Under the pieces are notes generated by a model. The model saw only the letters and a program-made list of their open reading frames with translations. It ran no database searches and had not been told where the DNA came from. Of a DNA stretch of 64,000 bases, positions 1 through 18,734 are shown in pieces. Numbering within the stretch: position 1 is the stretch's first letter; every line of letters begins with the position of its first letter. The translations under genes and the position numbers were made by a program. This DNA is from Globodera rostochiensis (Eukaryota > Nematoda > Chromadorea > Rhabditida > Heteroderidae): the NCBI GenBank assembly GCA_018350325.1, contig JAEVLN010000032.1, forward strand, positions 248,001-312,000. Reading direction: 5' to 3'.

Positions 1-2506
1 AATTCAAAATTTACATATTTATCATAATAATGAAACAAAAATGTATCTTCAAGATGGATATGATAAACAACAATTAGGTAATACGCGTGTGCCTAATTGT
101 TAACACAATCAGAGGAACGGTGCATATCAAACACCGCAAAGCCTTCTCGCAAAAGAGTAATTCAACAAAAAAAATCAAATTTATTCAAAAAAATATATAA
201 TAAATAATCAACGAACAAAATGTTTATACCTGATTTATAAAACGAAAAAAGTCTAGACCAAGTTAATTGTAATACAATTCTTTTAGTTAATAAACATTGC
301 GATCTAACCAATAAATACATCGATAAACAGTTAAATAAATTTATACGTAAACTACTTTTATATCGAGAAGCTAAATCAATTTTTTATGTAAAAAAATATA
401 ACACAAAAATTACTATTCAGCAAGACAAATTTCCATGCAATTCTATAAAAAACCCAAAAAAAAACGCGTGCGAGTATTGTGTGAAATTAAGGATTATCAA
501 AACCAATAAATACATCGATTAAACAGTTAAATAAATTTTATATGTAAAGTAATTTTATATCGAGAAGCTAAATCAATTTTGTAACAAAAAATTATTACAC
601 GATACTCAGTAAGACAGATTCCATTCAATTCGATAAAAATTATAAAACGGATGAAAGGTTTTGCATTCGAAATGAAAAAATTTTTATAAAGTTATATACA
701 ATAAATATAAACTATAGCTGCCATCCCAAGATAAAGGGCAACTTATTAACAAACTAAAGAAATGCGGGAAAAACTATTAAAAATGTTTTACATTTCATAT
801 AACGTGGAGAAGGCATAAAAGTTAGATTTAGTGGAACTACCATAAATGATATTAATAAAGAATATCAAATTGAAAAGAGAAAATATTAAAGAATGATACT
901 ATTTATAATACAATGTGCCTTTCAAAAAATTAGAAAATAGAAAATAAAGCTCTCATCAGGACGCACACAAACCAGTACTAATAAACGACTTGCTAGAACA
1001 ATTAGCGTAAAAAATAAAATTCCGTCCACCGTGTGTGGACAGCATGCGCCATTGCAGAATGGCCTATGGGATCGAATTGTTTGCTTGCTTGCTACTTGCT
1101 GCATTGAAGGAACATTCCCCACCGAACAAAATCAAAACAAACATTTTTGCATAATAAACAATTAATTTTAAAGGTTAAAGGAATTTTGCTCAAAAATTAA
1201 ATATTGATAAATGCTATAAACAGTCGCAAATCTTAAAAATTTTACAATTCATAAAATCAAATTAAACGAATAAACAAGACGTATTAAAATTTACATATTT
1301 ATCATTATAATTAAACTTAAATTATCTTCAAGATGGATATGATTAACATATAATTAATAAGATTTTTTAATTCGATAATATTTAAAAACTTTAATGGCAT
1401 TAAAATTTCTAATAAAACGCAAAAAAAATAAAAAAACAATTCAAAAAATGACTTTAATAATTCTAATTGGTTCAAAAAACATTAGAATTCGCGATAAAAA
1501 CTTAGTGAACGGATTCGTTTCCCAAGTATTTCTTGGCTAATTAAATTTGAAATTTATAGTTACGTGAATGCTGCTAAATAAGGTCGGTAGCGACAAATAC
1601 TAAACACATACTATTTATTCAAAATCGACAAGTATAAAACTATGTTTAACAAAATTAAAGATAAAATTAATATTTAAATTTTAAATGTTTATATAATAAT
1701 TTTCATCGAAGAACTTGGTAAGCGACTCTATTTTGGCTTCGTGAGGTGTTCTCCCTTCTCACAATCGACCTGCGGTACAATTAAAAACTTTTGTGAAGAT
1801 ATTAACTATTCGTAGACGTTATTAAATTTTAAGTACATTAATAAATTAACAATAATACACAAAGAAAAATCGCATCATAATTTTGTATCCCTTTGCTAAT
1901 ATAAAAATAATAAATGTTTCAAATTGATTCCGTATCTTAAGAAACATTTAAGGATTATTTTAAAACAATTTTTACAAAGTTAATAAAAAATCGGTAGACG
2001 CAGCACTTGCAACGACTGTCTCATGGGAGTTGACCAACCAACTTAAAAGAAAATAAAAATGAATAAAATTATACTATAAAACAATTTACCACAATAAAAA
2101 AATTTAATCGCGTTTAACTGTGCTTTGACGACAATCATATTTAACAGGATTCTGAAAAAAATATTGGTACAATACTTTACTTAAACAATAACTTTTACTA
2201 AGAAAAAAGTAAAACAAATTGTGATTATGTAATTATGAACCTAAATAAAGAATAATTAAGCATTAAAATCAATAATAACACAAAATTAATTATAAATTCC
2301 AAAATAAGTAACAAATAAATACAATAAATTTAAACACAAAAAATATGATAAAAATTTAATCAAATGAATCTTATGTTAATATGGTGGTGCGATTGACGGT
2401 CAAAAATCAGCATACATCAAGGTTTTAAAAATCCATAGGTTTCTCTAAACATATATATAATACTTTTGAATTTTTTTATATATATTGTTATCATTAATTA
2501 ATAATG
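1..2506. other. AT-rich host flank left of the Polinton, with short coding-like islands
   Basis: No long ORF is present. GC-richer islands that are open in a plus-strand frame occur near 100-165, 1015-1140, 1700-1815, 1990-2050 and 2385-2440. The one at 124-165 is preceded by a possible acceptor (ACAATCAG) and followed by a possible donor (GTAATT). Any of these could be small exons of a host gene or degenerate gene pieces. None can be assigned a function. Confidence 0.5.
1684..1815 (+). CDS. Candidate coding island, product unrecognised
   Basis: An open frame runs from upstream of position 1699 to a TAG at 1813-1815 and includes the stretch GKRLYFGFVRCSPF. Composition is clearly less AT-rich than the surroundings. 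There is no ATG at the start, and an internal GGTAAGC could itself be a splice donor, so the exon limits are uncertain. No family is recognised. Confidence 0.25.
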   Translation, partial: NVYIIIFIEELGKRLYFGFVRCSPFSQSTCGTIKNFCEDINYS

Positions 2507-2512
2507 AATACA
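2507..2512. repeat. Target site duplication, left copy (AATACA)
   Basis: AATACA lies immediately outside the left terminal repeat and is matched exactly by 17424-17429 outside the right one. Six-base duplications are the known signature of Polinton integrase. Confidence 0.95.
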
Positions 2513-3261
2513 AGCAGCATATGGCGTCAAAACCGAGCGGGTACCGAGCGGCCTTTGATCATGCCGCCACCAAACCTAAGCCTATTGGAGGGGGTCTGCC
2601 CTTTGATCATGCCGCCACCAAACCTAAACCTATGGGAGGGGTCCAACCCGTTGACCTTACCACCACCAAACCCAAACCTATTGGAGGGGTCCAACCCTTT
2701 GATCATGCCGCCACTCAACTTAAACCCATTGGGGCTTTGATCATGCCGCCTTCTACCTGATCCCAAAAGCGAGACTATTCAGTCCCAACAAAACCGAGCG
2801 GGTACTAAAACCGAGCGGCCTTTGATCATGCCGCCCGCAAGGCCTAAACCTATTGGAGGGGTCAGATCCTTTGATCTTGCCGCCCCAAGACAAAGGGGTC
2901 CAACTCTTTGAACTTACCGCCACCAGACCAAAAGTTGGTATCGTCCGGGTCAAAACCGAGCGGGTACCGAGCGGCCTCTTTTGACATTGCCGCCCGCAAA
3001 GCCCAAACCTATTGGAGGGGTCGGGTCCTTTGATCATGCCGCCCAAGCCAAAACCCATTGGAGTCCTTTGATCATGCCGCCCCAAAGAAAAGTTTTGAAA
3101 AAGGCGCGGCTGGATTTCTGATCAAACACTCAAACCCCATTGGGCCCATTGCCAAATCCAAAATTCAATTTTCCCTCCACATCCTCAAGGTCATTAGGGC
3201 ACCTGTCAATCAAACTTTCGCCGCGCACCAAAAATTTTTCCTCTCACCTGTCAATCAAACT
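2513..3261 (+). repeat. Left terminal inverted repeat (749 bp) with internal repeat array
   Basis: It matches the reverse complement of 16674-17423 almost base for base. The one visible difference is a short block near 3174-3188 (ACATC in the left arm against a C-rich version in the right) that accounts for the 1-bp length difference. The arm is built from about ten copies of a degenerate unit centred on TTTGATCATGCCGCC, alternating with CCTATTGGAGGGGTC and GAGCGGGTACCGAGCGG. It ends inward with two copies of CACCTGTCAATCAAA (3200-3214 and 3245-3259). ORFs read through this array are artefacts. Confidence 0.95.
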
Positions 3262-3318: not shown

Positions 3319-3921
3319 ATTGAAAGAATAATTCTTTCAGGGGCTACCGGAAGCGGTAAAACCCAATGGCTTTTGAAATTTTTGAAATATTATAGGGAAT
3401 TAATTGATCCAGTGCCAAATAAAGTTTTATATTGTTATGGTGAAATGAATGACAGTATTTTGGGGTTAATCGGGCAGGGTATAGAGACGCACAACGGAAT
3501 TCCAGATTTGAAATTGATAAAAGAACAAGCGAAACCGTTGTTACTTATTCTCGACGATTTAATGCTTAACGTAAAAAATAATTTTCTTGATTTGTTATTC
3601 ACGAGGGGATCTCATAATTGGAACGTTAGTATAATTTTTGTTACCCAAAGCCTATATGGTAGGGATATAAAAACTGCACGAGCAAATGCTCATTATCTTG
3701 TCTTGATGCGAAACCCATCAGGACAGCTTCAGGTAAGAACCGTAGGCTCACAGCTATTCCCCAAAAGACTGAATTACTTTATGGAAACATATAACAACGC
3801 AACCAGTAACCAATTTAGCTATCTGGTAATTAATATGCATCCAAACGCGGATGAAGAATTTAGATTATCGAGCAAAATATTTCCAGGTGAAATTTTAGAA
3901 GTATATTTGCCAAATGAATAA
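3319..3921 (+). CDS. FtsK/HerA-type genome packaging ATPase (A32-like)
   Basis: This is the P-loop ATPase that pumps DNA into capsids in Polintons and related viruses. The frame opens after a TAA at 3316-3318. Walker A (GATGSGKT) is at residues 8-15 and Walker B (LLLILDD) ends near residue 80, followed by the VTQSLYGRD and MRNPSG regions typical of the family. At about 200 residues it is close to the usual length. There is no in-frame ATG before Walker A: the first codon after the stop is ATT, and all remaining upstream sequence is terminal repeat. The start may be non-AUG, supplied by splicing, or lost. A CTTTCAG just before GGG at 3340 resembles a 3' splice site, but the codons it covers fit the conserved strand before the P-loop, so I favour coding. 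Confidence 0.9.
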   Translation: MERIILSGATGSGKTQWLLKFLKYYRELIDPVPNKVLYCYGEMNDSILGLIGQGIETHNGIPDLKLIKEQAKPLLLILDDLMLNVKNNFLDLLFTRGSHNWNVSIIFVTQSLYGRDIKTARANAHYLVLMRNPSGQLQVRTVGSQLFPKRLNYFMETYNNATSNQFSYLVINMHPNADEEFRLSSKIFPGEILEVYLPNE

Positions 3922-3926
3922 AAATC

Positions 3927-3934
3927 TATAAAAG
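3927..3934 (+). promoter_or_regulatory. TATA box (TATAAAAG) before the 118-aa gene
   Basis: TATAAAAG occurs 28 bp upstream of the ATG at 3955, in the short gap after the ATPase stop. The spacing resembles that of the other TATA boxes in the element. Confidence 0.5.
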
Positions 3935-4311: not shown

Positions 4312-5129
4312 AATTTGCAAAGAAAATGTTAATGGTTCCCGAAACGGAATATTACGCACTGTTAAGTGCCATCCAGGGCGGAGATTATCTGCAAAATGAA
4401 AAATCAATGCTAGATGCAAAAATAAGGCAGAATTTAGACGATCCGACAATAAATGAAGATGTTAAAGCTAGCAAGCATAACTGGCTTTATAAGGAAAGAC
4501 GGATGCTAAAAGAAATGACAGAAAATCGACCGCAAAAGGTGATTATTGAAAATCAGGCTCCAACACCAAATATTGCACCGTATTTGGGGGTTAGCCATGC
4601 GAAAACGCAGATGACTGAAGAGCCAAGAAAGGTCATTATTCCCAGAATAAGACTCAAAAGCATACCGGAACCTTCTGAGCCGCAGCCCCAAAAGCGTGAT
4701 GACGAACCCCAACTACCGCTTTCTACTTTATCTTCTCCAATTTTTAAAACGCCTGAAAAATTGCAAGCAACAGCATTAATTCATCCAGATTTTTGGAACG
4801 AACTTGTGAATTATGTTTCTAAAAACAAGGATACATTTAAAATAACAGCAATGGGAAAAGTTCAGTCTAATAAAAATCTACCAATTGACGAGAGTAATTA
4901 TAAGGATGTTTTGATGTATCTTGTCGGTGGGAAAAAAGAAACGCCAAAGGGAGTAAAATTTCTAAAGGATCGACTCTTAAAAGACCAGACAATACGAGAA
5001 ATGGTTGGCAAGTCAAGCGACATGTGGGGGGAGGGTAAAAAAGTTGTTGTCAAGATGAAACCTATAAAAACAATCGGTATCATTCGAGAAAAGAAGCTTT
5101 TTAAACCAACAATATGGGCAAGGCTATAG
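4308..5129 (+). CDS. Conserved Polinton protein of unknown function (273 aa)
   Basis: The N-terminal part (KMLMVPETEYYALLS, residues 6-20) resembles the start of uncharacterised Polinton proteins. A charged, Pro-rich linker follows, and then a C-terminal domain (residues about 150-240) with the IHPDFWNELV and LPIDESNYKDVLMYLV regions. Two adenain-type sites of the form [I/L]xGG-X are visible: IQGG near residue 25 and LVGG near 207. It may therefore be a precursor cut during virion maturation, which is inference. It overlaps the integrase start by 16 nt. Confidence 0.65.
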   Translation: MKFAKKMLMVPETEYYALLSAIQGGDYLQNEKSMLDAKIRQNLDDPTINEDVKASKHNWLYKERRMLKEMTENRPQKVIIENQAPTPNIAPYLGVSHAKTQMTEEPRKVIIPRIRLKSIPEPSEPQPQKRDDEPQLPLSTLSSPIFKTPEKLQATALIHPDFWNELVNYVSKNKDTFKITAMGKVQSNKNLPIDESNYKDVLMYLVGGKKETPKGVKFLKDRLLKDQTIREMVGKSSDMWGEGKKVVVKMKPIKTIGIIREKKLFKPTIWARL

Positions 5130-6190
5130 ATAAAATTTTATCAAAAGTTTATTACGATCTCAAATCTTCGGCAAGTTTTGCAGGAATAAATAAAATTTTA
5201 GAAGAAGCAAGGAAGGTAAATCCAAAAATTAAAATGGAGCACGTTACCAATTTTCTCGAAAAACAGAAAACTTACACTCTCCATAAACCCATTAGAAAAA
5301 GATTTTCAAAACTAAAAACAACACCTACTGGGTTTCATACCGATTGGCAATGCGATCTTTGTATTTTTGACCAATTAAAACAATATAACAACGGATATAA
5401 ATATCTATTAGTCTGCATAGAGGTTCTGAGCCGAATGCTTTTTGTTGCCCCGGTGAAGTCAAAAAGAAGTGAGGATGTGATAGAGGCTTTTGAAAAAGTC
5501 TTCAAAAAATCAAATATTCTCCCAAATAAGCTGTATAGCGACAGTGGGCTTGAATTTCAGGCAAATAAAATGAAAAGATATTTTGAGGATAAAGATGTAA
5601 TAAAACGGGTAATGCATAGCCCACACCTCCACGCAGGTGTTGTGGAAAGGGCTAATCGAACAATAAAGGAGCGTCTCTATAGATACTTTAGTAAAAATAA
5701 TACCCTTAGGTGGGTGGATGTTATAGATGAAATTGTTAAAAACCTAAATAATAGTGTTCATCGAACCACGGGGATGAAACCAACTTCCGTAAAATTTGAA
5801 AATGCCAGAGCACTATGGGAGAAGTTATATAAGGAAAATGTGGTACCAGTGTCTACGAAGAAATTTAAAAGAGGTGATATCGTTCGCATCACGAAAGAAA
5901 AAGGAACATTTACAAAAGGATATTATCCGAATTTTACTGAGGAATTGTTCATAATTTCAGTAGTTAATCCAACAAATCCAGCCTCCTATCGCATTGTAGA
6001 TTTTGACGACAATCTAATCAAGGGTATTTTTTATAATCAAGAACTTGTAAAATCAAACGAAGATATTTTTAAAATTGCAGAGGTCATAAAAACGCGTGTT
6101 AGAAAAGGAATTAAAGAGCATTTTGTAAGGTGGGAAGGATATTCTGAAAAATTCAATAGTTGGATAAAAGATTCTGATCTAGTAAAATAA
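5114..6190 (+). CDS. Polinton integrase (retroviral-type DDE, with chromodomain)
   Basis: This integrase inserts the element and produces the 6-bp duplications seen at its ends. The 358-residue protein has an rve catalytic core with Asp81 (DWQCDL), Asp143 (YSDSG) and Glu178 (VVERANR), 34 residues separating the last two. The Gly-Val-Val-Glu-Arg-Ala-Asn context is characteristic. Residues about 316-356 form a chromodomain (VRWEGYSEKFNSW), known in Polinton and Ty3/gypsy integrases as a targeting module that binds modified histones. The start ATG lies within the previous gene. The stop overlaps the next ATG (TAATG). The catalytic triad is complete, so the enzyme is predicted to be functional. 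Confidence 0.96.
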   Translation: MGKAIDKILSKVYYDLKSSASFAGINKILEEARKVNPKIKMEHVTNFLEKQKTYTLHKPIRKRFSKLKTTPTGFHTDWQCDLCIFDQLKQYNNGYKYLLVCIEVLSRMLFVAPVKSKRSEDVIEAFEKVFKKSNILPNKLYSDSGLEFQANKMKRYFEDKDVIKRVMHSPHLHAGVVERANRTIKERLYRYFSKNNTLRWVDVIDEIVKNLNNSVHRTTGMKPTSVKFENARALWEKLYKENVVPVSTKKFKRGDIVRITKEKGTFTKGYYPNFTEELFIISVVNPTNPASYRIVDFDDNLIKGIFYNQELVKSNEDIFKIAEVIKTRVRKGIKEHFVRWEGYSEKFNSWIKDSDLVK

Positions 6191-7647
6191 TGGATGATTT
6201 TTATATTGTATTACCATCAAATACACCCGTTTCAGGAAACAAAACCTCAAAGTTTACTGTAAGACTACCAGAAACTCTAGAATTAGACACAAGCTGGTCA
6301 GTTGCCCTTTCTTCAATAATTTATCCCTATTCGTTCACAGCTCTCGGAATAGAGGGGCGAGAATTTATTAACGTTTTTGAAAAAGAAAAGACTGAAGGTT
6401 TAAAAATATACCTCCCTGATATGAATTTTAAAACTGCAAGAGGGCTGGAAAAGAAAATTAATGAAGCATTTTCTCATTATTATAATTTAGGAAAGCGACA
6501 AGCGAGAAGAAAAAGAGAGGCCAAATCTAAAGAAGAGAGCACAGATAAGCAAATAGATTCTGCTAAAAGAGCATCCGGTCGAGCCTGGAAAGAGACTCAA
6601 GGATATGTTCAAAAAGCTAGCAATATAATAACGCAAACAAGACGTCTAATGGCACAATCAAAAGAATTGAGCTCAAACTCACTCGAAGCTCCGGGTGTGA
6701 AGGAGTTGTTTGAAAAACTAGCACAAAAGAGTACCAACTTTGAATCATTGTTTGAAGAAATCAACAAACTTTCAAAAGAAGTCGAAGGTGCTCAGAATAG
6801 TACTCTAGAATGTGTAGCTAAGCAAGATCTTAAGGGGGCGAAAAAATTTGCAGACAAAGCAAAAGCTGCTGCAAGACATGTTAAGACCAAACAAATCGAA
6901 ATAGCTAGAGAGCATGAAAATACTACTGAGGAGGGATTTGCCGGACTTGTAACAAGAATAAATAAGACCATTGGCGGTTTCTTACAGCCACAATCAGAAG
7001 ATCAGAATAAAGAGGCACCGCAACACGCCGAAATTGAGCATATCGTGCCGCAAAGAGAAGAATCGGAACAAATAGCAAGTGCACAGGAAGAAGAAGAGGA
7101 TCCTAAGGAGAAAATGTCAGAAGAAACGCAAAAAGGGGAAAAATTATCTGCAGAACCCCAACCAAAAATTGCCGTCGCACAAGATTTTGGCAAGGATATA
7201 TCAACACCTAGGCCTTTAGAATTTAAATATGACTCTGTTGATCAAAAATTTATTCTTCATCTAGATACCGCCATCCCAAATATTGAGTTGTCCGAACATT
7301 TAGCATATGTATTAGGGTTTAAAAATCGGGTATTGCATCGTGGAGATGAGGCTTCTTATATGCCAGATTTGACAGGTGGAGTAAGACAGATATATGTTTA
7401 TGCACCGAATCTGGTGGAAAACACTATAATAGGCAACCGATTGGCACCACTTCTACGAATCGTTAATGTAGTTGGAGATCCGGGATCAATAAACGAGGTT
7501 ATATATAGCACCGAATATTTTCATCGTTTACAATCAAAACGAATCGCCGAAATTTCTGTAGAAATTTATACGCCTTTTGGAGAATTAGTGAAATTTCATT
7601 GGGGAACTTGTATTCTCACCTTACATTTTAAGAAAACTATATTTTAA
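6190..7647 (+). CDS. Minor capsid (penton-type single jelly-roll) protein with a large inserted helical region
   Basis: The first 100 residues carry the opening jelly-roll strands (FTVRLPETLELDTSWSVAL at 22-40, then IIYPYS). The last 146 (from about 340) carry the rest (LAYVLGF, RQIYVYAPNLV, LAPLLRIV, KFHWGTCILTLHF), as in Polinton penton homologues. Between them, residues about 100-335 are a Lys/Glu/Gln-rich, probably coiled-coil insertion with no jelly-roll features. It gives 485 residues in all and could form a surface projection at the vertex. The LTGG near residue 394 matches the adenain motif but lies in the fold. It follows the integrase with a TAATG overlap and is separated from the next gene by one base. 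Confidence 0.88.
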   Translation: MDDFYIVLPSNTPVSGNKTSKFTVRLPETLELDTSWSVALSSIIYPYSFTALGIEGREFINVFEKEKTEGLKIYLPDMNFKTARGLEKKINEAFSHYYNLGKRQARRKREAKSKEESTDKQIDSAKRASGRAWKETQGYVQKASNIITQTRRLMAQSKELSSNSLEAPGVKELFEKLAQKSTNFESLFEEINKLSKEVEGAQNSTLECVAKQDLKGAKKFADKAKAAARHVKTKQIEIAREHENTTEEGFAGLVTRINKTIGGFLQPQSEDQNKEAPQHAEIEHIVPQREESEQIASAQEEEEDPKEKMSEETQKGEKLSAEPQPKIAVAQDFGKDISTPRPLEFKYDSVDQKFILHLDTAIPNIELSEHLAYVLGFKNRVLHRGDEASYMPDLTGGVRQIYVYAPNLVENTIIGNRLAPLLRIVNVVGDPGSINEVIYSTEYFHRLQSKRIAEISVEIYTPFGELVKFHWGTCILTLHFKKTIF

Positions 7648-8050: not shown

Positions 8051-9403
8051 ATGGCGACTTTAAAGAAAATTGATAAAACAAGTGAGGATGGTCTCGAAGG
8101 AGGCCTGGCACTATTCGATATTCCTCCTACCAATGTTGCGATAAACAAATCCAGCGTTAGGGAATTACTACCACTATCGGCTATAAATCAATCGGGCCCA
8201 TATATTTTTAGATTATTTTCGGACAGCCAGTTTTGCGATCTTAATAAAACCTTTTTATTCCTATCAACATCAATAGAACGGAAGCAAAATAATAATTGGA
8301 TACCAATTACAAGCGCTAGCGACGCTGACAAGCATGCCGGAGTTATTCAAAACTTTGGCCAAAGCTTTATAAAAACTTTAAAAATCAGTGTTTCCGGTGT
8401 GGAAATATATGATTCTGGCGTATATTATGCATACCGGTCATATATGATGAATGAACTGGGATTTTCAGATGTTGTAAAGAGGGGGTTATATGAAGCAAAT
8501 TGTTACTATGTTGATGACACCGATCAGAATAATTATGAAAATGAAGGATTTAAAAACAGGGCATCTCGATTTGCGAACGGCACTAATTGTGAAACTATGG
8601 TGAAACTCAATTTCGATTTGGGGCGTCAGCCCAATTTACTATTAAATAATTCCGATGTAATATTTAGTATATATCGTAATAGTGATGAATTTTTAATTTT
8701 GGCTCCGCCTTACAAACTAGAAAAAGAGATGCTGCCAAATCCTCATGAATTTCGGATTAGAGTAAATGACATTCGAATTTATGTGAAGACCGTTGATGTT
8801 GCTCAATCATTAAATAATGCTATCAGTAACCATTTGGAGATTACCCCAGCCAAATACCCAATGAGAAAAATAGAGATTAGAAGTCTTTTCCTGCCCGAAG
8901 GTACCTCCGATCTATCCCACAATGTTTTTACAAGCGTCGTCCCGAGGAGGTTGATTATTGGGTTTGTTTCCACCGATGCCTATACAGGTAATAAGGCTCT
9001 TTCGCCCTTTAAATTTGAACATGCAAATATTCGCTCGATTACTATTGAGGCAAATGGGTATACATTTCCCGGAGCACCATATTCATTTGATTTCAAAAAT
9101 AAAAAATATGTGAGGGCTTTTGTTGATATGTACACCGGTCTAGGCATGGATGATGGCGACAGAACAATGTCAATAAATATGTCAAAATTCTTGGGTGGCT
9201 GGTGCTTCTTTGTAATACCAATGACTTCTACCCTTGATGACACCCCCGGATTTGAGCTCATACGAAATGGAACCACTAGTGTCAAGGTTCAATTTACTGA
9301 ACCTATAAAAGCGGGTGGCTATGAGATGATTGTTTTGGGAGAATTTGATTCAATATTATCGATCAATGCAAATCGCGTTATTAGTAGTGACGGAAGCATT
9401 TAA
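8051..9403 (+). CDS. Major capsid protein (double jelly-roll, hexon-like)
   Basis: The 450-residue protein fits the Polinton major capsid family: an early SGPYIFRLF strand, LKISVSGVEIYDSG near residue 115, ELGFS, the central transition LNNAISNHLEITPAKYPMRK, and the second jelly-roll starting RRLIIGFVSTDAYTG, with YTGLG further on. Trimers of such proteins build the icosahedral shell. An LEGG at residues 15-18 matches the adenain consensus, so the N-terminus may be trimmed by the neighbouring protease (inferred). Its stop overlaps the protease start (TAATG). The frame is intact. Confidence 0.93.
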   Translation: MATLKKIDKTSEDGLEGGLALFDIPPTNVAINKSSVRELLPLSAINQSGPYIFRLFSDSQFCDLNKTFLFLSTSIERKQNNNWIPITSASDADKHAGVIQNFGQSFIKTLKISVSGVEIYDSGVYYAYRSYMMNELGFSDVVKRGLYEANCYYVDDTDQNNYENEGFKNRASRFANGTNCETMVKLNFDLGRQPNLLLNNSDVIFSIYRNSDEFLILAPPYKLEKEMLPNPHEFRIRVNDIRIYVKTVDVAQSLNNAISNHLEITPAKYPMRKIEIRSLFLPEGTSDLSHNVFTSVVPRRLIIGFVSTDAYTGNKALSPFKFEHANIRSITIEANGYTFPGAPYSFDFKNKKYVRAFVDMYTGLGMDDGDRTMSINMSKFLGGWCFFVIPMTSTLDDTPGFELIRNGTTSVKVQFTEPIKAGGYEMIVLGEFDSILSINANRVISSDGSI

Positions 9404-9858
9404 TGAATTCTAACCAGTTAGACAGTATCTTGTCAAACATTAAAGCAACTGAAAAACATTTTATTGGTGTTTTTGCTTCCAATAATATTCCAAAAGTCCA
9501 TAGAGGGAGAAAATATCCATATTGTTTTGTGGCAAATACAGGCAAAGCTGGCACAATTGGCGAGCATTGGGTGGCCTGTTTTGTTAGCTCGTATACTCAA
9601 ATAGAATATTTTGATTCGCTGGGTGAGCACCCAAATGAAGATTTGGGTGCCTACCTTAACCAATTTGACAAAATTTTGTTTAACGAACGTATTATACAAC
9701 ATCCGTTTTCAGATTCATGCGGTCATTTTTGTATTTATTTTTTGGCTGTTCGCTGTTCAGGGGTTGCATACTGCAAAGCCATGGATAACTTATATAAGGC
9801 TCGTTCAATAGCTGATTTATTAGTTAAAAAATTTGTTAGATCATTATGTTATCGTTAG
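9403..9858 (+). CDS. Adenain-like cysteine protease (C5/Ulp1 fold)
   Basis: This is the virion maturation protease. All active-site residues are visible in the 151-residue chain: His55 in GEHWVACFV, Asp71 in IEYFDSLG, oxyanion Gln99, and nucleophile Cys106 in DSCGHFCIYFL. The seven-residue Gln-Cys spacing equals that of adenovirus protease. The enzyme would cut precursors at [M/I/L]xGG-X sites, several of which occur in neighbouring products. Its end overlaps the next gene by 13 nt. Confidence 0.94.
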   Translation: MNSNQLDSILSNIKATEKHFIGVFASNNIPKVHRGRKYPYCFVANTGKAGTIGEHWVACFVSSYTQIEYFDSLGEHPNEDLGAYLNQFDKILFNERIIQHPFSDSCGHFCIYFLAVRCSGVAYCKAMDNLYKARSIADLLVKKFVRSLCYR

Positions 9859-10781
9859 TAATTTTAATTACAATATTTGTTCCAAGCGTGGGTGAAGAAA
9901 TTAATGTGGAAATTTCCACGGATAGACCAAACTTTTTTGACAAAAAATATATTACAATTTCAAAACCCTCAACACTTGATAGATTGTTTGGCTTTGACCC
10001 AAATAGACTATGTATGTTAAGCAGAGACATTAGATTGGGGTGGACTATTTCAATTCAAAAGATAAATTCTATTGAAAGAATTGGACCAACAAAGATTGAA
10101 TTATACCAGCATTTTAGATTTATGAAACCCATGGCGTGTTTTTACTTTAATGAACACACTTACCTTATTTTTAAAAATATTAACACAAATGAAACATCAA
10201 TTATTCGCGGTCATTATGAAAAAGTCTTGAAAAATTTTCCAACCGGTGACTTACGGTTTGATCATGTCGGAAAAAGGCTCTTCATAATTAGAGATGACAA
10301 AATCGATGAAATCAACATGAGCTCGTTTGAGAACTGGTGGCTTCACGATAACCAAGAAGACTTTGAAAAATTACATTTGGAACCGATTGGCGCAATGCCT
10401 TCCGAGTACACCGATTTCCTAATAGTCGACAATCAGATTTATTTGATCAACAATAGAAAAGTTTATCGATACGCTCTAGGATCTAACGATATACTTCCAA
10501 AATTAATTTCAGCTTTAAATTCTGACAAGTTCAACGTTATGATATTTAACGAGCTCAAACCGATAAACCAATCTAGTTCAAATGCCTGGGTATATTTTTT
10601 ATATGCTTTTGACGTGCTAATGTTTTTGATTTGTATTTTTATTATTAAAAAATTGAAGCTAGGGAAAAAGAAGAATGATTCTTTAAACACCTCCGTGTTT
10701 TATTCATCAGATGATGAAAGAGTATATAAGGAAGTGATTGAGACAATACGACCGCCTCAAAATGTGCACCAGTCTCATTGA
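9846..10781 (+). CDS. Type I membrane glycoprotein, unrecognised (cargo gene)
   Basis: The 311-residue protein starts with a signal peptide (MLSLVILITIFVPSVG). An ectodomain of about 230 residues follows, with three N-glycosylation sequons (NET, NMS, NQS), then a transmembrane helix near residues 247-267 (WVYFLYAFDVLMFLICIFII) and a 44-residue charged cytoplasmic tail. Two ectodomain segments (KRLFIIRDDKIDEIN and NQIYLINNRKVYRY) resemble blades of a beta-propeller or hemopexin repeat, a weak impression only. I do not recognise a family. Given its place among virion genes it may be a surface, receptor-binding or envelope protein. Some nematode Mavericks are reported to carry a viral-type fusogen, but this protein is shorter and shows no heptad-repeat or fusion-peptide pattern that I can see. 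Confidence 0.7.
   Translation: MLSLVILITIFVPSVGEEINVEISTDRPNFFDKKYITISKPSTLDRLFGFDPNRLCMLSRDIRLGWTISIQKINSIERIGPTKIELYQHFRFMKPMACFYFNEHTYLIFKNINTNETSIIRGHYEKVLKNFPTGDLRFDHVGKRLFIIRDDKIDEINMSSFENWWLHDNQEDFEKLHLEPIGAMPSEYTDFLIVDNQIYLINNRKVYRYALGSNDILPKLISALNSDKFNVMIFNELKPINQSSSNAWVYFLYAFDVLMFLICIFIIKKLKLGKKKNDSLNTSVFYSSDDERVYKEVIETIRPPQNVHQSH
10723..10730 (+). promoter_or_regulatory. TATA box (TATATAAG) of the PAZ gene
   Basis: TATATAAG lies inside the 3' end of the membrane-protein gene, 39 bp before the ATG of the PAZ gene, the same spacing as at the TBP gene. Read on the minus strand, the polB promoter has the identical octamer. Confidence 0.55.
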
Positions 10782-11115
10782 AATTTTATGCGAATTTAAT
10801 AAGTGTGAGCCCCATGAGCTTGCACAATTTTTAAAGAGAAGAAGAGTTGAAAACTTCAATTTTCTGAGAAATAACCCGCTGGTCACCATACATCTTAGAC
10901 ATAATCAATTTGTTTCACCGGACAACATCACTTTTATTGGTGCAAATAGATTATTTGCATACCGGGGGTTCCTTGGCGTAACAGTTGAACAGCATTTGTA
11001 TTCCAAACATCGAGTCAAATTACACTACCCGCAATTCCCTTGCATAGTGATGTACCAAAATAGTGGTCATCGAAATTATTTTCCCCTGGAACTTTTACAA
11101 AAATATTGCGGCTAA
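10762..11115 (+). CDS. Stand-alone PAZ-domain protein (Argonaute PAZ-like)
   Basis: From the first ATG this encodes 117 residues that are essentially one PAZ domain and nothing else. Visible features, in order, are SLIEILCEF (4-12), matching the segment that leads into Argonaute PAZ; VTIHLRH (41-47); GVTVEQHLYSKHRVKLHYPQ (72-91), containing the LxYPxxPC core completed by FPC; and YFPLELL (106-112), matching the PAZ YLPLEVC segment. In Argonautes, PAZ holds the 3' end of small RNAs. Here no PIWI, MID or RNase III domain follows. His78 stands where Argonautes usually have the first Tyr of the 3'-end pocket, so binding may differ. A captured host PAZ acting as an RNAi suppressor or decoy is a plausible but unproven role. 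It has its own TATA box and overlaps the upstream gene by 20 nt. Confidence 0.85.
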   Translation: MCTSLIEILCEFNKCEPHELAQFLKRRRVENFNFLRNNPLVTIHLRHNQFVSPDNITFIGANRLFAYRGFLGVTVEQHLYSKHRVKLHYPQFPCIVMYQNSGHRNYFPLELLQKYCG

Positions 11116-11207: not shown

Positions 11208-14200
11208 TCAATCAAATCCAAATGGCAAAACATTAAAATCCTCGTCGATAATCCCCTTCTGGCAGATCGGCATGTACATCTTGTGTTTCTCCCTCGTCAC
11301 GACCTTTGACTCACGCGTTGGCCTAAAAAATTTTTTTTTAAAACAAATATTTAAAAATTCAAAAAAACTTACCCAAAATCGTTCTTGTATACAAAGAAAG
11401 CCGGGTCCATCTCCTCTCCGTAGCTCAGCACCATCTTCTTGAACGCCTCATAATGCAGTGTCTTGTGATTATCCACATCAAATGTTATCCCTCGAATTTT
11501 CATAACGTAGTCCACATCCCCCGTCTTTTTGCTTCTCATCTTCAGACCATACTGCTTCGCCCCACCACAACAAAATTCTTCAATTTCATAGCCGCCATAT
11601 TCCTCGCTCATCTGTCCGAGATATTTTCCCGTCGTTATCGGCTCCACATCCCTATCGTGCATAACAAAAATACTGTCCGTATCCGTGTACAATATTTCTC
11701 CCCCATTCCTTTCCGCCTCCTGCATATAGTCCAACAATTTCAATCGCGCCATACTCGTCGTCCACAAACTTAAGATGATGTTGCTCGAACTATGTTCCGT
11801 GACGAAATCCTCCTTGTCCTTGTAAACAACGCGAATCGCCCCATCCGAATACTCAACAATGTCGTGAATCTCAATCTTGTGGTCGCACACCAATCCATAA
11901 AACTCCGACGCCTGATCGATGACCTTATTCTTGCACAACGAATTCCTCATTGAAAATTTCCCCTAAAAAATTTTATGTAAATTCAGTAATTTTGCTAATT
12001 TTTTTCTTACCCATAAACTATTCAACATCAGCTTACTGATGTACCGCAGGCCCGCATTCTTCTTCACTCTCTCCAAATCAATATCAATACCGTACTTTTC
12101 CTTATATTCTTCTGCCCACTTCTTCTTCTGCTCCTCTGTCTCAACTCCTTTCGGAAAACCGCTCGCCTCCTCTTTCAATTTTAAAAATAATCTCACATAT
12201 CCCTTGAACAAATCGTCGTTATCCTCCCCATAGTGCCACGCTCTATAAAATCTGTCCACTGTGTATCCGCTTTCCAACGCCTTTGCCTAAAAACATTTTT
12301 ATTAACCAAATTATTTTATAAATTTTTTTTCTTACCAATTCAACACTTGTATACGTGGCAACATATCTCCTCTGAGATTCATCATGGGGGCACTTGTATT
12401 CACATCTCGTATTCTCCTTCTTAAAGCTCGATGCGCACCTCCAACACAGCGGAAACAATAATCTCTCATCGCACTTCAACTGCAGCACCGGTATTCTGAG
12501 TCCCTTCGGCGGGTTGACCCTCACTTTGTACAGCCCCTTGTACTTCAAATCCTCCGGCTTTGTCCAGCTCACTTCAATTTCATCTCGCGTCGGTATAATA
12601 ATGTCGGGCAGTCGTGTCGGGTATGCTGTTTCGTAGTTCACTGCCGGGTACAAGCTCACAATATCGTAAACTGAAATCTTCTTCTTCTCATCGGCCTTTG
12701 CAAATAGCTTCATCGGTCCCGTCCGCCCTCCCGCATATGCCATCCTCGGATCAATTGGCCCCTTTTCATTTCCTCTGTCCTCGAAAAATTCTTTCATCTC
12801 GGCGTCTCTTTTCAGCTCTTGCTCAATTTCACAAGTCCAGACTTCCTCAACATCCAACGTTTCCCGTAGCTCAGCCAACCGCTCCTGTGTGTCATCATAC
12901 AAATCTTGCGCCGCTCGTCCTCCAATCAATTGCGCCGTCGGGTCATAACATTTCAAACATCCGTGGATGAAACAGCCCATAACTTCAATACATTTGCTTC
13001 TGCCGCCCCCATTCTCAATATATCCGTCCAGTTTGTATTTTCCAACTTGCTCCTCTCGACCATTGCCCGCATGCTTAATGTCCACATTGTCTCTTTTGCT
13101 CCTCCACTCCAAATATTTGATGGCGATCACGCTGGCCCTGTCACAGCGCTCATATCCCCTCTCCGGCACAATCGATAACTCCTCCTCTTGTAAAAACATG
13201 GCCTTAAAAATACTCATTGCAACTCCCGCATTCGTGCAACTCCTAGGCAGCGGGTCAAACCCTCCCGTAATGTCCTTGACCAAGATCCTCCGGAACTCAA
13301 CTATCGACTTCAGCAAAATCTCCGTGTCGTTTCGGCAATAATTCTTCAGCTCCTCGGGCAAATAAAACGGCGTCTCCTTATTCTCGTTGTACCATTTCTC
13401 AAATTTGTCGAACTTTTCCTTCTTCATCGATCCTGGCGAATAGTCTTCCATGGGCGGTAAATGGGGCAGATGTCTGTTGTAATTCTCCTTCTTGTTGTAG
13501 TAGTACGGAAAGAAAGGCTTCTCCTCGCAGTCCAAATTAAATGTAGCCTTCATCGCTTCAAGTTTCACCGGCATCAGCAAGCATGAGTCCCTCCATATCA
13601 GTATTGAATGTTTCTTCGAGTTTTGCACCGTAAATTCGTAAATCTTCAGCCCATTAATCAGCGGCATCGGGCTCTTCCCGGCTCGGCAAAGGTAGTTAAA
13701 CACGAAATGTCCATCAAATCTCCCGGCGTTGTGTGCGAATAGGTAGGTCTTGTACTTCTTATCAAATGCCGACAAAATCCACTCCAAAAATTCCTTGATG
13801 GGCTCACGTCCTTCCGCCTCGCTCCAGTCCTTTTCTCTTTCAGTCCCACAAATCCGACACTCCTTCCTGCTTCCATCATCGCAGCACTCGGTACACGTCA
13901 CTCTCGCCGAGATGTAATTAATCACATGTTCCTTTTGCTCTCCCTTAAAAATTTTGTCCTGTGACGTCTCCGAATCCTAAAAATTTACATATTTTTCTGC
14001 TATCGGGCTTAATATTGACTTACCCAAACAACGATCCTGTAGATATCCTTCTCCTCTTTGACCCCGATCGGCTTAATATAACATCCTCGCTTCGGGTCAT
14101 GGCAAATCCCACATGATCGGCAAAAAGTCTCCCCACATTCGTGTTTACTCTTCGGATTGAACAAAAAAGTTTTGTTGCAATCTACGCACCGCTTCCATAT

Positions 14201-15490
14201 GTTGCACGTTTGATGTCCTTGATGGTAATTGTAGCATAGCTGGTTGTAAAAGAATCGTCGACATTTAGGGCATTCAATTTTCACTCCTCTTTCCTTGGTG
14301 CATGGCATTCCTCCGACTCGGTTGCAATAGTAACATCTGGCCTTGCACTCATAAGTATGTCTGACGTCTTGGTCGTAAAAACATTCACAGTCGATGCAGA
14401 ACTTCTTTCCCTTGTTGAAGAAGCACACGTAATTCTTCAGACCATCCCAATGATTGTCCTCCAAAAATATCGGCACAACCGCTTCACGCCCCATCGGCCC
14501 CTTCCAAAGCACGCGAATTGATTTCCTCGGGTCCACACATTTTTCAAAAGCCGCAATTCGGTATTTTCCCGGAAAAGTTTGATCCTAAATAAAAATATAT
14601 ATTCTGAAACATTTTTTATTTTTTTTACCCAATATTTCTGAATCGCTGACAAATGCTCAACTCCATAGCTATTTTCCATATTGTTAACTCCGGATTTGTG
14701 CAAAATTTCAAATGCCGCCTCCCTTTGTCGCACAATGTTTTTTATAAAACGATTAAACGCAAATCTGTCAACCTCCAAATATTTCTTTGATGCCGTCAGC
14801 GCGTAAAATAAACAAAATTTGTCGTTGTTGTTGACCCTAAAATAATATTTGTTCAATGGTCACTTTAGTGGAAATTTTTTTTTTATTTTTTATTTTTAAT
14901 TAAACTCACTGTATCCGTTGATGTTCCTTAAATCCATAGTCGAATTTGTGAACATTTCTTGGGCCCTCTCCAGCTGGCAGCGCGACACACGTAACATTCA
15001 TTTGCATCGGACGAGAAAGTAAAACCGTCCTCATGTCGTCTCCATTTTCTCCTCCGCTTTGCCCCAACTTGTTGATTTCCTCCATGACGACGTCCGCGTT
15101 GTTTTGTGGGTATGGGCGATACGGCAAATATACAGGGTATCCCAGTCCCGTCCCCGTCAATGATACTCCAAACATTTTCACCTTTCGCCCCATTGTTTCT
15201 TCAGTCCGGTTGAAGGCCTTGTTTATCATTTCCTCAATTGCATCTCTCATTCGTTCATCCGGGTGCGGCGTATCCGGGTTGATGGTAAATTCGGTAATGT
15301 TTTTCATAAATCCAAACTTTTTGCAAATCTCCGTGCGATGATCGTTTAACTTGTACATTTCTTCCGAGAAATTGTTTCTAAATAATTGTCTTATTTATAG
15401 AATTTTTATTTTAAATTCTTACCCAATTGTTCGGAAGTCCCACTTTTTAGCCGCCGGTCCACCGGATTGGTTCACACGTTTTGAAGTCAT
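11208..15490 (-). CDS. polB: Protein-primed family B DNA polymerase, eight exons
   Basis: This is the replicative polymerase of the element. The exons I infer are 15490-15423, 15377-14910, 14836-14629, 14584-14024, 13976-12336, 12286-12011, 11962-11373 and 11322-11208. The lengths sum to 3927 nt (1308 codons plus stop) with frame kept at each junction. All introns are 44-73 nt, with GTAAG, GTGAG or GTAAA donors and T-rich TTTAG acceptors. Exon 4 encodes a Cys-rich zinc-binding region. The 3'-5' exonuclease motifs follow: ExoI DSET (around residue 436, opening exon 5), ExoII HNAGRFD (Asp about 523), ExoIII YCRND (Asp about 652). A GCFIHGCLKC motif typical of Polinton polymerases comes next, then motif A DIVSLYP (about 873), motif B KLMLNSLWGKF (spanning intron 6) and motif C YTDTDS. 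All catalytic residues are present. The start is the only ATG upstream of exon 2 that preserves the frame. Confidence 0.93.
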
Positions 15491-16096: not shown

Positions 16097-16636
16097 ATGC
16101 AAAAACCTATCATTGTCAATATCGTTGCTGTCGCCAATTTGGGGGTTAAGATTGATTTCTCTTCATTATCGATTAATGATTGCAAATTTAAGTATAACCC
16201 ACGAAAATTTAAAGCTGCAATTTTGAAATGTGAAAATCCTATAAAATCCACTGCTTTATTATGGGAGTCTGGAAAAATAATTTGTTTGGGCACCAAAAAT
16301 TTGGAAGATTGCGAAAAAGCGATAAGAAAATTTGTTGAAATTATTAAATTCTCGGGATGTCCCAGTGTTTTTTACACAGGACATTTAATTGAAAATGTTG
16401 TTACTTCTTTTAATTTTGGGCGGGAAGTTGATCTAAATGAATTCCGAAAAATTCGTCCCAAAAATAGTTTTTATGAGCCTGAAATTTTTTGTGGTCTAAA
16501 CTACAAAAGAGGAAAAAGATTGACTGCCTTAATTTTTTGGACAGGCAAAGTGGTAATAACGGGTGGAAAAAATATTGAAGAAATTAACGAAATGTACTAT
16601 CACATTATGCCTTATTTAAAAATGTCGCAAAAGTGA
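16097..16636 (+). CDS. TATA-binding protein homologue encoded by the Polinton
   Basis: The 179-residue protein is a complete TBP core with both direct repeats and almost no extra N-terminus. Repeat 1 shows IVNIVAVANLGVKID (6-20), KYNPRKFKAAIL (32-43) and ALLWESGKIICLGTK (53-67). Repeat 2 shows IENVVTSFN (98-106), SFYEPEIFCGLNYKRGK (124-140), ALIFWTGKVVITGGK (144-158) and a final helix ending PYLKM. These are the signature segments of eukaryotic TBP. Of the four DNA-kinking Phe positions I align W56, C88, F147 and Y167, so only one is Phe. DNA recognition may therefore be altered. TBP-like factors (TLF/TRF) are an alternative, but YNPRKF and YEPEIF favour TBP. It would nucleate transcription on TATA promoters, and the element has several. 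It lies 37 bp from the right terminal repeat. Confidence 0.92.
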   Translation: MQKPIIVNIVAVANLGVKIDFSSLSINDCKFKYNPRKFKAAILKCENPIKSTALLWESGKIICLGTKNLEDCEKAIRKFVEIIKFSGCPSVFYTGHLIENVVTSFNFGREVDLNEFRKIRPKNSFYEPEIFCGLNYKRGKRLTALIFWTGKVVITGGKNIEEINEMYYHIMPYLKMSQK

Positions 16637-16673: not shown

Positions 16674-17423
16674 AGTTTGATTGACAGGTGAGAGGAAAAA
16701 TTTTTGGTGCGCGGCGAAAGTTTGATTGACAGGTGCCCTAATGACCTTGAGAGCGGGGGAGGGAAAATTGAATTTTGGATTTGGCAATGGGCCCAATGGG
16801 GTTTGAGTGTTTGATCAGAAATCCAGCCGCGCCTTTTTCAAAACTTTTCTTTGGGGCGGCATGATCAAAGGACTCCAATGGGTTTTGGCTTGGGCGGCAT
16901 GATCAAAGGACCCGACCCCTCCAATAGGTTTGGGCTTTGCGGGCGGCAATGTCAAAAGAGGCCGCTCGGTACCCGCTCGGTTTTGACCCGGACGATACCA
17001 ACTTTTGGTCTGGTGGCGGTAAGTTCAAAGAGTTGGACCCCTTTGTCTTGGGGCGGCAAGATCAAAGGATCTGACCCCTCCAATAGGTTTAGGCCTTGCG
17101 GGCGGCATGATCAAAGGCCGCTCGGTTTTAGTACCCGCTCGGTTTTGTTGGGACTGAATAGTCTCGCTTTTGGGATCAGGTAGAAGGCGGCATGATCAAA
17201 GCCCCAATGGGTTTAAGTTGAGTGGCGGCATGATCAAAGGGTTGGACCCCTCCAATAGGTTTGGGTTTGGTGGTGGTAAGGTCAACGGGTTGGACCCCTC
17301 CCATAGGTTTAGGTTTGGTGGCGGCATGATCAAAGGGCAGACCCCCTCCAATAGGCTTAGGTTTGGTGGCGGCATGATCAAAGGCCGCTCGGTACCCGCT
17401 CGGTTTTGACGCCATATGCTGCT
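16674..17423 (-). repeat. Right terminal inverted repeat (750 bp)
   Basis: It is the reverse complement of 2513-3261 apart from one short C-rich block near 16750-16760. TTTGATTGACAGGTG copies lie at its inner end (16676-16690 and 16721-16735), and the GGCGGCATGATCAAAG array fills the remainder. The outermost bases are ATGCTGCT, the complement of AGCAGCAT. Confidence 0.95.
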
Positions 17424-17429
17424 AATACA
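17424..17429. repeat. Target site duplication, right copy (AATACA)
   Basis: Exact copy of 2507-2512, directly adjoining the right terminal repeat. Confidence 0.95.
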
Positions 17430-18734
17430 TTTAAAAAGTTAATGTATGATTTTAAATAAATATATTCAAAAATTATTGGAATTAATAAATGTTATATAAG
17501 TAAAATAGCTTCAAAATTTTTTATTGTAATATCTTCGCTTAAGAACCATTATTAATTATAAATAGACTTGATCTATTAATGTTCTAATGAATAAATCCCA
17601 AAAATGCCCTTCCCGTTTATTAAACATATACATTTTAATTAATATTTTTATTGTTTTAATTTAGTTAATTGATATTAATATTTTGTTTGAATAATGTACG
17701 ATGCACTTTATTATAAGTTGTGATTGTGCTCACCTTAGTTAACTTTTAAACATATTTATCACTTCTTAATTTTTACAAATATATCATGAAATTTTTTCAA
17801 ATTAACACAAAAACTGAATGACGGACAGCGGTCCAGCAAAATTATCACGGCTATGCGGAAAATCCCTTGTGGGCTGGGGTAAGTCATCGATTTTTATTTT
17901 TATCCTTATAATTGTTAACAAAATTAGAAATTGCATTTAAAACGCACTTGATAAATTTTATTTAGAGAAAATTAAGAGAAATTAAGATATCGTTAAATTA
18001 TGAAACATATTAAACTTGAATTAATTTATTTAATTAATTTTTAGTTTGAATAATTTAAATATTGCGTGATAATTTGCTTTAGATCATTATTCCGTACCTT
18101 TTGAACTTGTTTTTCCTATATGTTTTTTTATAAATATTTTATTTTTAATAAAAAACAAATGTTTTTCATTTGGGCCAACTTTTCAGTGCAATTAATTGTG
18201 CGTTTGTTGCTGTTTTTATTTCTAAATTTTATATTTTGGTTATCCGATAGCGATCGACGAGAAGCAAACGCTCAATCAGCGGGATCTCACCACAATTAAT
18301 TATATGATTTTCGCAGCTCTCTTTTATATTTCATTTCTCGAATATAAATGAATTATCGTAAATTTTTGGCAAGTTTATGCCAATTTGATTGCCCGGACTG
18401 AATTTTTCTTGTCTGCAAATGTCTCACATGCATGAATTAATAAATCGCTAATCCTCTTTCATTTTAGCCAAAAAAGAAGCAATAAATGGTTTTGATTGAG
18501 GTTTTGATCTATTTTAATTTCTTTATTCAATTTACAATTGAACATCCTGTAGTTTATGTGTTAAGCATAGCTAACCCATTTTCCAAATTTAATATTCATA
18601 TATTAAAACTAGTTACTTATAATCGATAATGTTCTTTATGAATAAGCCGCAATACTTAAATTCTTGCACTGTGTATGGGAATTCTTAATTGTCCCAATAA
18701 GCTTATCCATCAAAATGCATTTGTTAAAAACTTC

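Follow-up and report, generated by a model that had tools for sequence, protein, structure and literature searches.

What use could a mobile element have for a protein that consists of a PAZ domain and nothing else? The question is raised by a 117-residue reading frame in a 64,000-nucleotide stretch of the Globodera rostochiensis genome (contig JAEVLN010000032.1, positions 248,001 to 312,000, forward strand; hereafter the window). An initial annotation, made from the letters alone, described a stand-alone PAZ gene with its own TATA box inside a Polinton and proposed that it might suppress RNA silencing by piRNA or siRNA.

The element is a Polinton/Maverick, as the initial annotation had it (Table 1). 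Two 687-nt inverted repeats, mismatched at 10 positions, enclose about 15 kb that includes an rve integrase, a family-B DNA polymerase (PolB) and a TBP-like gene. Within the left repeat, positions 2552-2732 consist of tandem 48-nt units (3.8 copies, 82% matches) that are mirrored in the right arm. The integrase C-terminus is chromodomain-like (Chromo E 8.3e-5, below the cut-off), and the 485-aa protein has no family match above the cut-off. The 450-aa protein has a mean column identity of 67% across 11 aligned copies. Searches of PDB, Pfam and PHROGs with its family profile gave no credible match, no relative was found among IMG/VR viral contigs, and a fold prediction from the single sequence (pLDDT 31.4) was unusable. 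We used this protein as a conserved hallmark, the capsid label being putative.

Table 1. Features of the Polinton and its PAZ gene, in window positions
Feature	Position	Strand	Basis or remark
Left terminal inverted repeat	2492..3178		outer end approximate
Packaging-ATPase-like fragment	3445..3921	+	Pox_A32 E 0.0046, below cut-off
Retrovirus-type integrase	5114..6190	+	rve PF00665 9e-10
485-aa protein, minor capsid candidate	6190..7647	+	position only
450-aa conserved protein, putative major capsid protein	8051..9403	+	size, position, conservation
Adenovirus-protease-like cysteine protease	9403..9858	+	Peptidase_C5 E 0.001, below cut-off
311-aa protein without family assignment	9846..10781	+	overlaps PAZ start by 20 nt
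TATA box TATATAAG	10723..10730	+	39 nt upstream of PAZ ATG
Stand-alone PAZ-domain gene	10762..11115	+	ORF (ATG to stop, 117 aa), profile match, fold
Part of family-B DNA polymerase	12243..13667	-	PF03175 1.5e-24
TATA-binding-protein homologue	16097..16636	+	PF00352 7.1e-41
Right terminal inverted repeat	16758..17444		outer end approximate

The reading frame is present with the letters originally quoted, and the antisense of the same stretch is interrupted by stop codons. Against PF02170 the window protein scores 23.2 bits (E 7.3e-5, residues 64-112), below the Pfam cut-off of 28.8 bits. A sister copy at C24 reaches 29.9 bits, but with a match that extends beyond the stop codon, and a lineage-B copy at C3 reaches 43.8 bits. 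A PDB search with the window protein placed Argonaute PAZ domains at the top (residues 73-112). A profile of 15 relatives, all 15 of which match PF02170 at E <= 0.01, matched, up to E 10, 27 different PDB sequences, Argonautes only, the best at E 2.7e-9. Because that match spans profile positions 4-122, the SLIEILCEF start also aligns with Argonaute PAZ, as had been claimed. No Dicer PAZ is among the structure matches listed for the protein, though this weighs against nothing. Fold prediction and structure comparison give a PAZ fold along the entire domain length, the feature on which the initial annotation had staked its assignment beforehand. The hairpin after residue 50 is shorter in the window copy than in lineage B. 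The frame contains no MID or PIWI domain and ends at its own stop, in line with the original description.

Selection was assessed by dN/dS on 17 intact PAZ ORFs. All 15 pairs among the six intact lineage-A copies give values of 0.04-0.20. Silent sites are at or close to saturation in 35 of the 45 lineage-B pairs, and nine of the ten remaining pairs lie at 0.13-0.18; one young lineage-B pair gives 0.52 on 11 changes, which weighs against the suppressor reading. Two lineage-A copies (L007 and L008) are broken, and the dN/dS values largely rule out a pseudogene or passenger. A 55-column tree, short and weak as data, separates the PAZ-only proteins with support 94 from six rows of Argonaute PAZ, of which one is human and five are exon fragments of the host. 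The split is unrooted and groups all six Argonaute rows, whose apparent non-monophyly is due to rooting. On these weak data, the split led us to reject a recent piece of host Argonaute. Fold, profile and selection together rule out a chance ORF, and the gene is almost certainly a selected PAZ protein that belongs to the element.

The search of related Polintons that had been suggested at the outset covered the genome (92.6 Mb, 80 contigs). Matches to three PAZ protein queries (all 48 rows of the window-query search and 10 more from the other two) clustered into 51 PAZ-only loci, 43 of which have a putative capsid, integrase or PolB gene no more than 13 kb away. For the putative capsid gene alone the count is 38 of 51; no more than 1.5% of the genome is that close to a capsid locus. 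PAZ accompanies 39 of 54 putative-capsid loci; the other 15 have none within 13 kb, and eight PAZ loci have no listed hallmark within the same distance, both of which weigh against the suppressor reading. These eight (genome G000, C5:2617654, C9:2005283, C17:991689, C26:664265, C45:372555, C45:3419529, C45:3572117 and C56:4418062) may be relics, a contig end (C26) or possibly host-adopted copies. The PAZ ORF at C45:372555 is open across 189 codons.

Clustering also yielded 45 integrase and 47 polymerase loci, both partial lists in which some loci are fragments. Where no capsid gene was detected, 23 of the 27 listed integrase loci and 20 of the 24 PolB loci had no PAZ nearby. None of the 51 PAZ-only loci has PIWI within 20 kb. 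By contrast, PIWI lies no more than about 3 kb away at all 10 Argonaute PAZ loci, and none of the 10 has a Polinton hallmark within 20 kb. The survey behind these Argonaute figures used 43 of the 48 window-query rows (the five dropped being second pieces of loci already included) and 10 of 24 rows from a second PAZ search (12 overlapping loci and two second pieces dropped); the 10 rows kept are PAZ loci missed by the window query.

Gene order was tabulated for 16 chosen elements. The window type runs INT-MCP-PAZ-PolB(reversed), most lineage-B elements run INT-MCP-PolB-PAZ(reversed), with one in the window order, and lineages C and D have two other orders. Retention of PAZ despite this rearrangement argues for a use. 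Short introns within the PAZ gene, at neighbouring positions, can be inferred for L033-L044, L050 and L051, GC-AG-like in lineage C and GT-AG-like in lineage D; the former would fit with the unusual share of GC-AG introns that the G. rostochiensis genome paper (excerpt of PMC4901422) reports for Heteroderidae. One locus (L055, G000:C29:8500-17500) carries PolB and an integrase 74% identical to that of the window. L055 and 22 other integrase loci, some of them fragments, lack both PAZ and any detectable 450-aa hallmark protein, and apparently form a capsid-less Polinton group. A stretch at G000:C16:161128-161643 is 89% identical to the window integrase and sits inside a 4021-codon open frame, which is odd because the integrase gene encodes 358 aa.

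The TATA box ascribed to the gene is borne out, since it recurs at -39 or -42 in all six intact lineage-A copies. Of 11 other ORFs examined, five carry a TATA-like motif between -47 and -52, and six have none in the 100 nt before the ATG. Elsewhere in the element, TATA motifs near ORF starts lie at 3927, 8015, 9791 and 16058 on the + strand, like that at 10723, and at 15399 on the - strand; these six, of 12 TATA-like matches in the element, are placed 28-55 nt ahead of the ATG of a listed ORF. Together with the TBP homologue, these motifs look as if the element brings its own promoter recognition.

Whether the protein could grip a 3' end was judged from the hAgo2 residues to which an excerpt of PMC5896489 ascribes binding of the 3' overhang. 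These were mapped by sequence alignment, rather than by superposed coordinates, onto 72 of 80 PAZ proteins (the window protein and 79 found). The equivalents of H316 (H in 71/72), R315 (R/K in 69/72), Y311 (H/Y in 71/72; H in the window copy), H271 (Y/H in 71/72) and Y338 (Y/F in 65/72) rank among the best-conserved positions. The K335 equivalent is not kept, being E in 56/72 and H in the window copy. We take F294 and Y279 to be hAgo2 pocket residues as well; the column taken for F294, where the mapping is uncertain, varies (F in 3/72), and the adjoining position 67 is Y/F in 72/72. The R277, P295 and Q297 equivalents were left out of the scoring. With five positions kept, K335 lost and the F294 column variable, the pocket is mostly, not fully, Argonaute-like. 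The protein probably binds nucleic-acid 3' ends, an estimate that the positions not kept lower a little.

Several uses for such a protein can be envisaged. Our favored one, for which we put the chances at about even given the fold, the pocket and the context, is that the Polinton uses a free Argonaute-type PAZ to suppress host RNA silencing. Its computed support comprises the predicted full-length PAZ fold, the mostly conserved pocket, the lack of MID and PIWI, purifying selection, the promoter motif and recurrence in diverged Polinton lineages. A PAZ with a pocket and without MID or PIWI would be unable to guide or cut, yet able to hold 3' ends. It might cap the 3' ends of Dicer siRNAs and/or of the RdRP-made secondary siRNAs that load WAGO Argonautes; capped small RNAs would then be kept from anchoring in Argonaute, and the genes of the element would escape silencing. 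Since PAZ reads the 3' end regardless of 5' chemistry, primary and secondary siRNAs alike could be taken by the same protein. Weaker binding is to be expected of a PAZ on its own than of a whole Argonaute. For an element that needs transcription in a WAGO-rich host, putting small RNAs out of reach would be the simplest use.

The host repertoire bears on the likely target. According to an excerpt of PMC5934874, plant-parasitic nematodes, G. rostochiensis among them, yielded no identifiable PRG-1/2, and that species has 0 RDE-1-type, 9 cytoplasmic WAGO, 5 nuclear WAGO and 9 CSR-1-type Argonautes. The piRNA pathway, one of the two originally suggested, is thus an unlikely target, and a piRNA-specific suppressor was rejected. 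With no RDE-1-type protein reported there, the siRNA branch may be incomplete, and these counts make the WAGO branch the likelier target. Elsewhere Polintons are targets of silencing; in oysters they are enriched in piRNA clusters (excerpt of PMC6128900).

The chief rival places the protein at the element's own nucleic-acid ends. As a replication or packaging helper, its pocket would grip 3' ends on single-stranded DNA or RNA belonging to the element, such as strands displaced by the protein-primed polymerase, whose ends would be protected or handed on. Linear ends and a family-B polymerase are features of Polintons, the PAZ gene tracks putative-capsid loci, a PAZ complex with a deoxynucleotide overhang has been solved (title of 1si2), and DNA bound to the AGO2 PAZ domain is cited in an excerpt of PMC6361761. 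However, the many integrase and PolB loci in the partial lists that have neither PAZ nor a detected capsid gene indicate that replication alone does not need it, and 15 of 54 putative-capsid loci also do without. The near-absence of PAZ from integrase elements in which no capsid gene is detected argues against an obligate replication role and fits either packaging or a need of the virus-like elements to counter silencing. A role at the element's own ends is unlikely overall.

A second strategy would dispense with RNA capture: the free PAZ could act as a decoy that competes with the PAZ of Argonaute itself for loading factors or Dicer. The predicted Argonaute-type fold and the loss of some pocket positions are compatible with this, as are the acidic C-termini of many tailed relatives, which could be contact sites, perhaps for Argonaute. 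Lineage-B C-termini are acidic (for example L047:387-929, - strand), and the 63 tailed relatives include 48 with an aromatic last residue, 28 with C[ST]Q near the end and 20 with a W-x-G-x-x-F-like motif. Lineage-A proteins, however, are without a tail, and a pure protein decoy would not need the five pocket positions that are among the best conserved, which makes this strategy rather improbable. Less probable still, and by some way, is self-regulation, in which PAZ and host small RNAs would damp the element's own genes or exclude sister elements; one genome does hold many copies of several lineages, but the protein lacks the MID and PIWI domains with which to find or cut targets. That the gene is a functionless passenger fragment of a host Argonaute is scarcely credible, since the two broken copies are outweighed by dN/dS values that largely refute it, by the tree split and by recurrence of the gene in several gene orders.

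The 15-row profile found 79 proteins in a search that admitted only near-query lengths, so that full Argonautes could not appear. Relatives with a named organism come from Globodera, Heterodera and Meloidogyne, and many others from metagenome sources. Six of seven G. rostochiensis PAZ-only proteins match ORFs of this genome at 100% identity from end to end; for the seventh (P0030), identity to the nearest of 17 ORFs compared is 87%. The nematode spliced leader matches the genome 69 + 64 times, a reversed control 0 times. PAZ relatives were not found in IMG/VR viral contigs, and none of 369 matches (E <= 10) between predicted viral structures and PAZ reached E 0.001. In a limited collection, titles and abstract starts held no report of a PAZ gene in a Polinton; excerpts of PMC6361761 and PMC6128900 mention both Polinton and PAZ domain and draw no link between them.

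Comparison with known systems sets the protein apart in several respects. In structural alignments it is about 19-24% identical to Argonaute PAZ domains (hAgo1/hAgo2, Drosophila Ago1/Ago2). Unlike Argonaute, it has no N, L1, MID or PIWI, has lost the K335 equivalent and is encoded by a mobile element. The automatically annotated "PAZ domain-containing protein" entries of Globodera, Heterodera and Meloidogyne belong to the same family, under names that give no Polinton link and no function. An excerpt of PMC4053983 sets a PAZ protein apart from full-length Argonautes; the likeness is one of description only, and the excerpt gives no mobile-element setting. Inverted repeats, integrase, PolB and a protease-like gene are shared with Polinton/Maverick elements, among whose known genes, to our knowledge, PAZ does not figure. 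Viral silencing suppressors such as p19 and B2 sequester small RNAs, and the same outcome is proposed here, although we know of no viral silencing suppressor that uses a PAZ fold. This is a known domain and a known strategy, silencing suppression, in a combination not found described in the literature searched. It is tempting, if a little short of an even bet, to suppose that tylenchid Polintons captured an Argonaute PAZ and kept it across gene orders as a dedicated anti-silencing weapon aimed at WAGOs, in hosts where no piRNA Argonautes were found. It would then be the first suppressor with a PAZ fold, and no PAZ would have been described before in a virus-like element. If so, a mobile element has turned the silencing machinery's reader of small-RNA ends into an anti-silencing defence, a new structural class of suppressor that could help explain the persistence of capsid-bearing Polintons in WAGO-rich nematodes and that, at 117 aa, is small enough to suit a direct test of the hypothesis.
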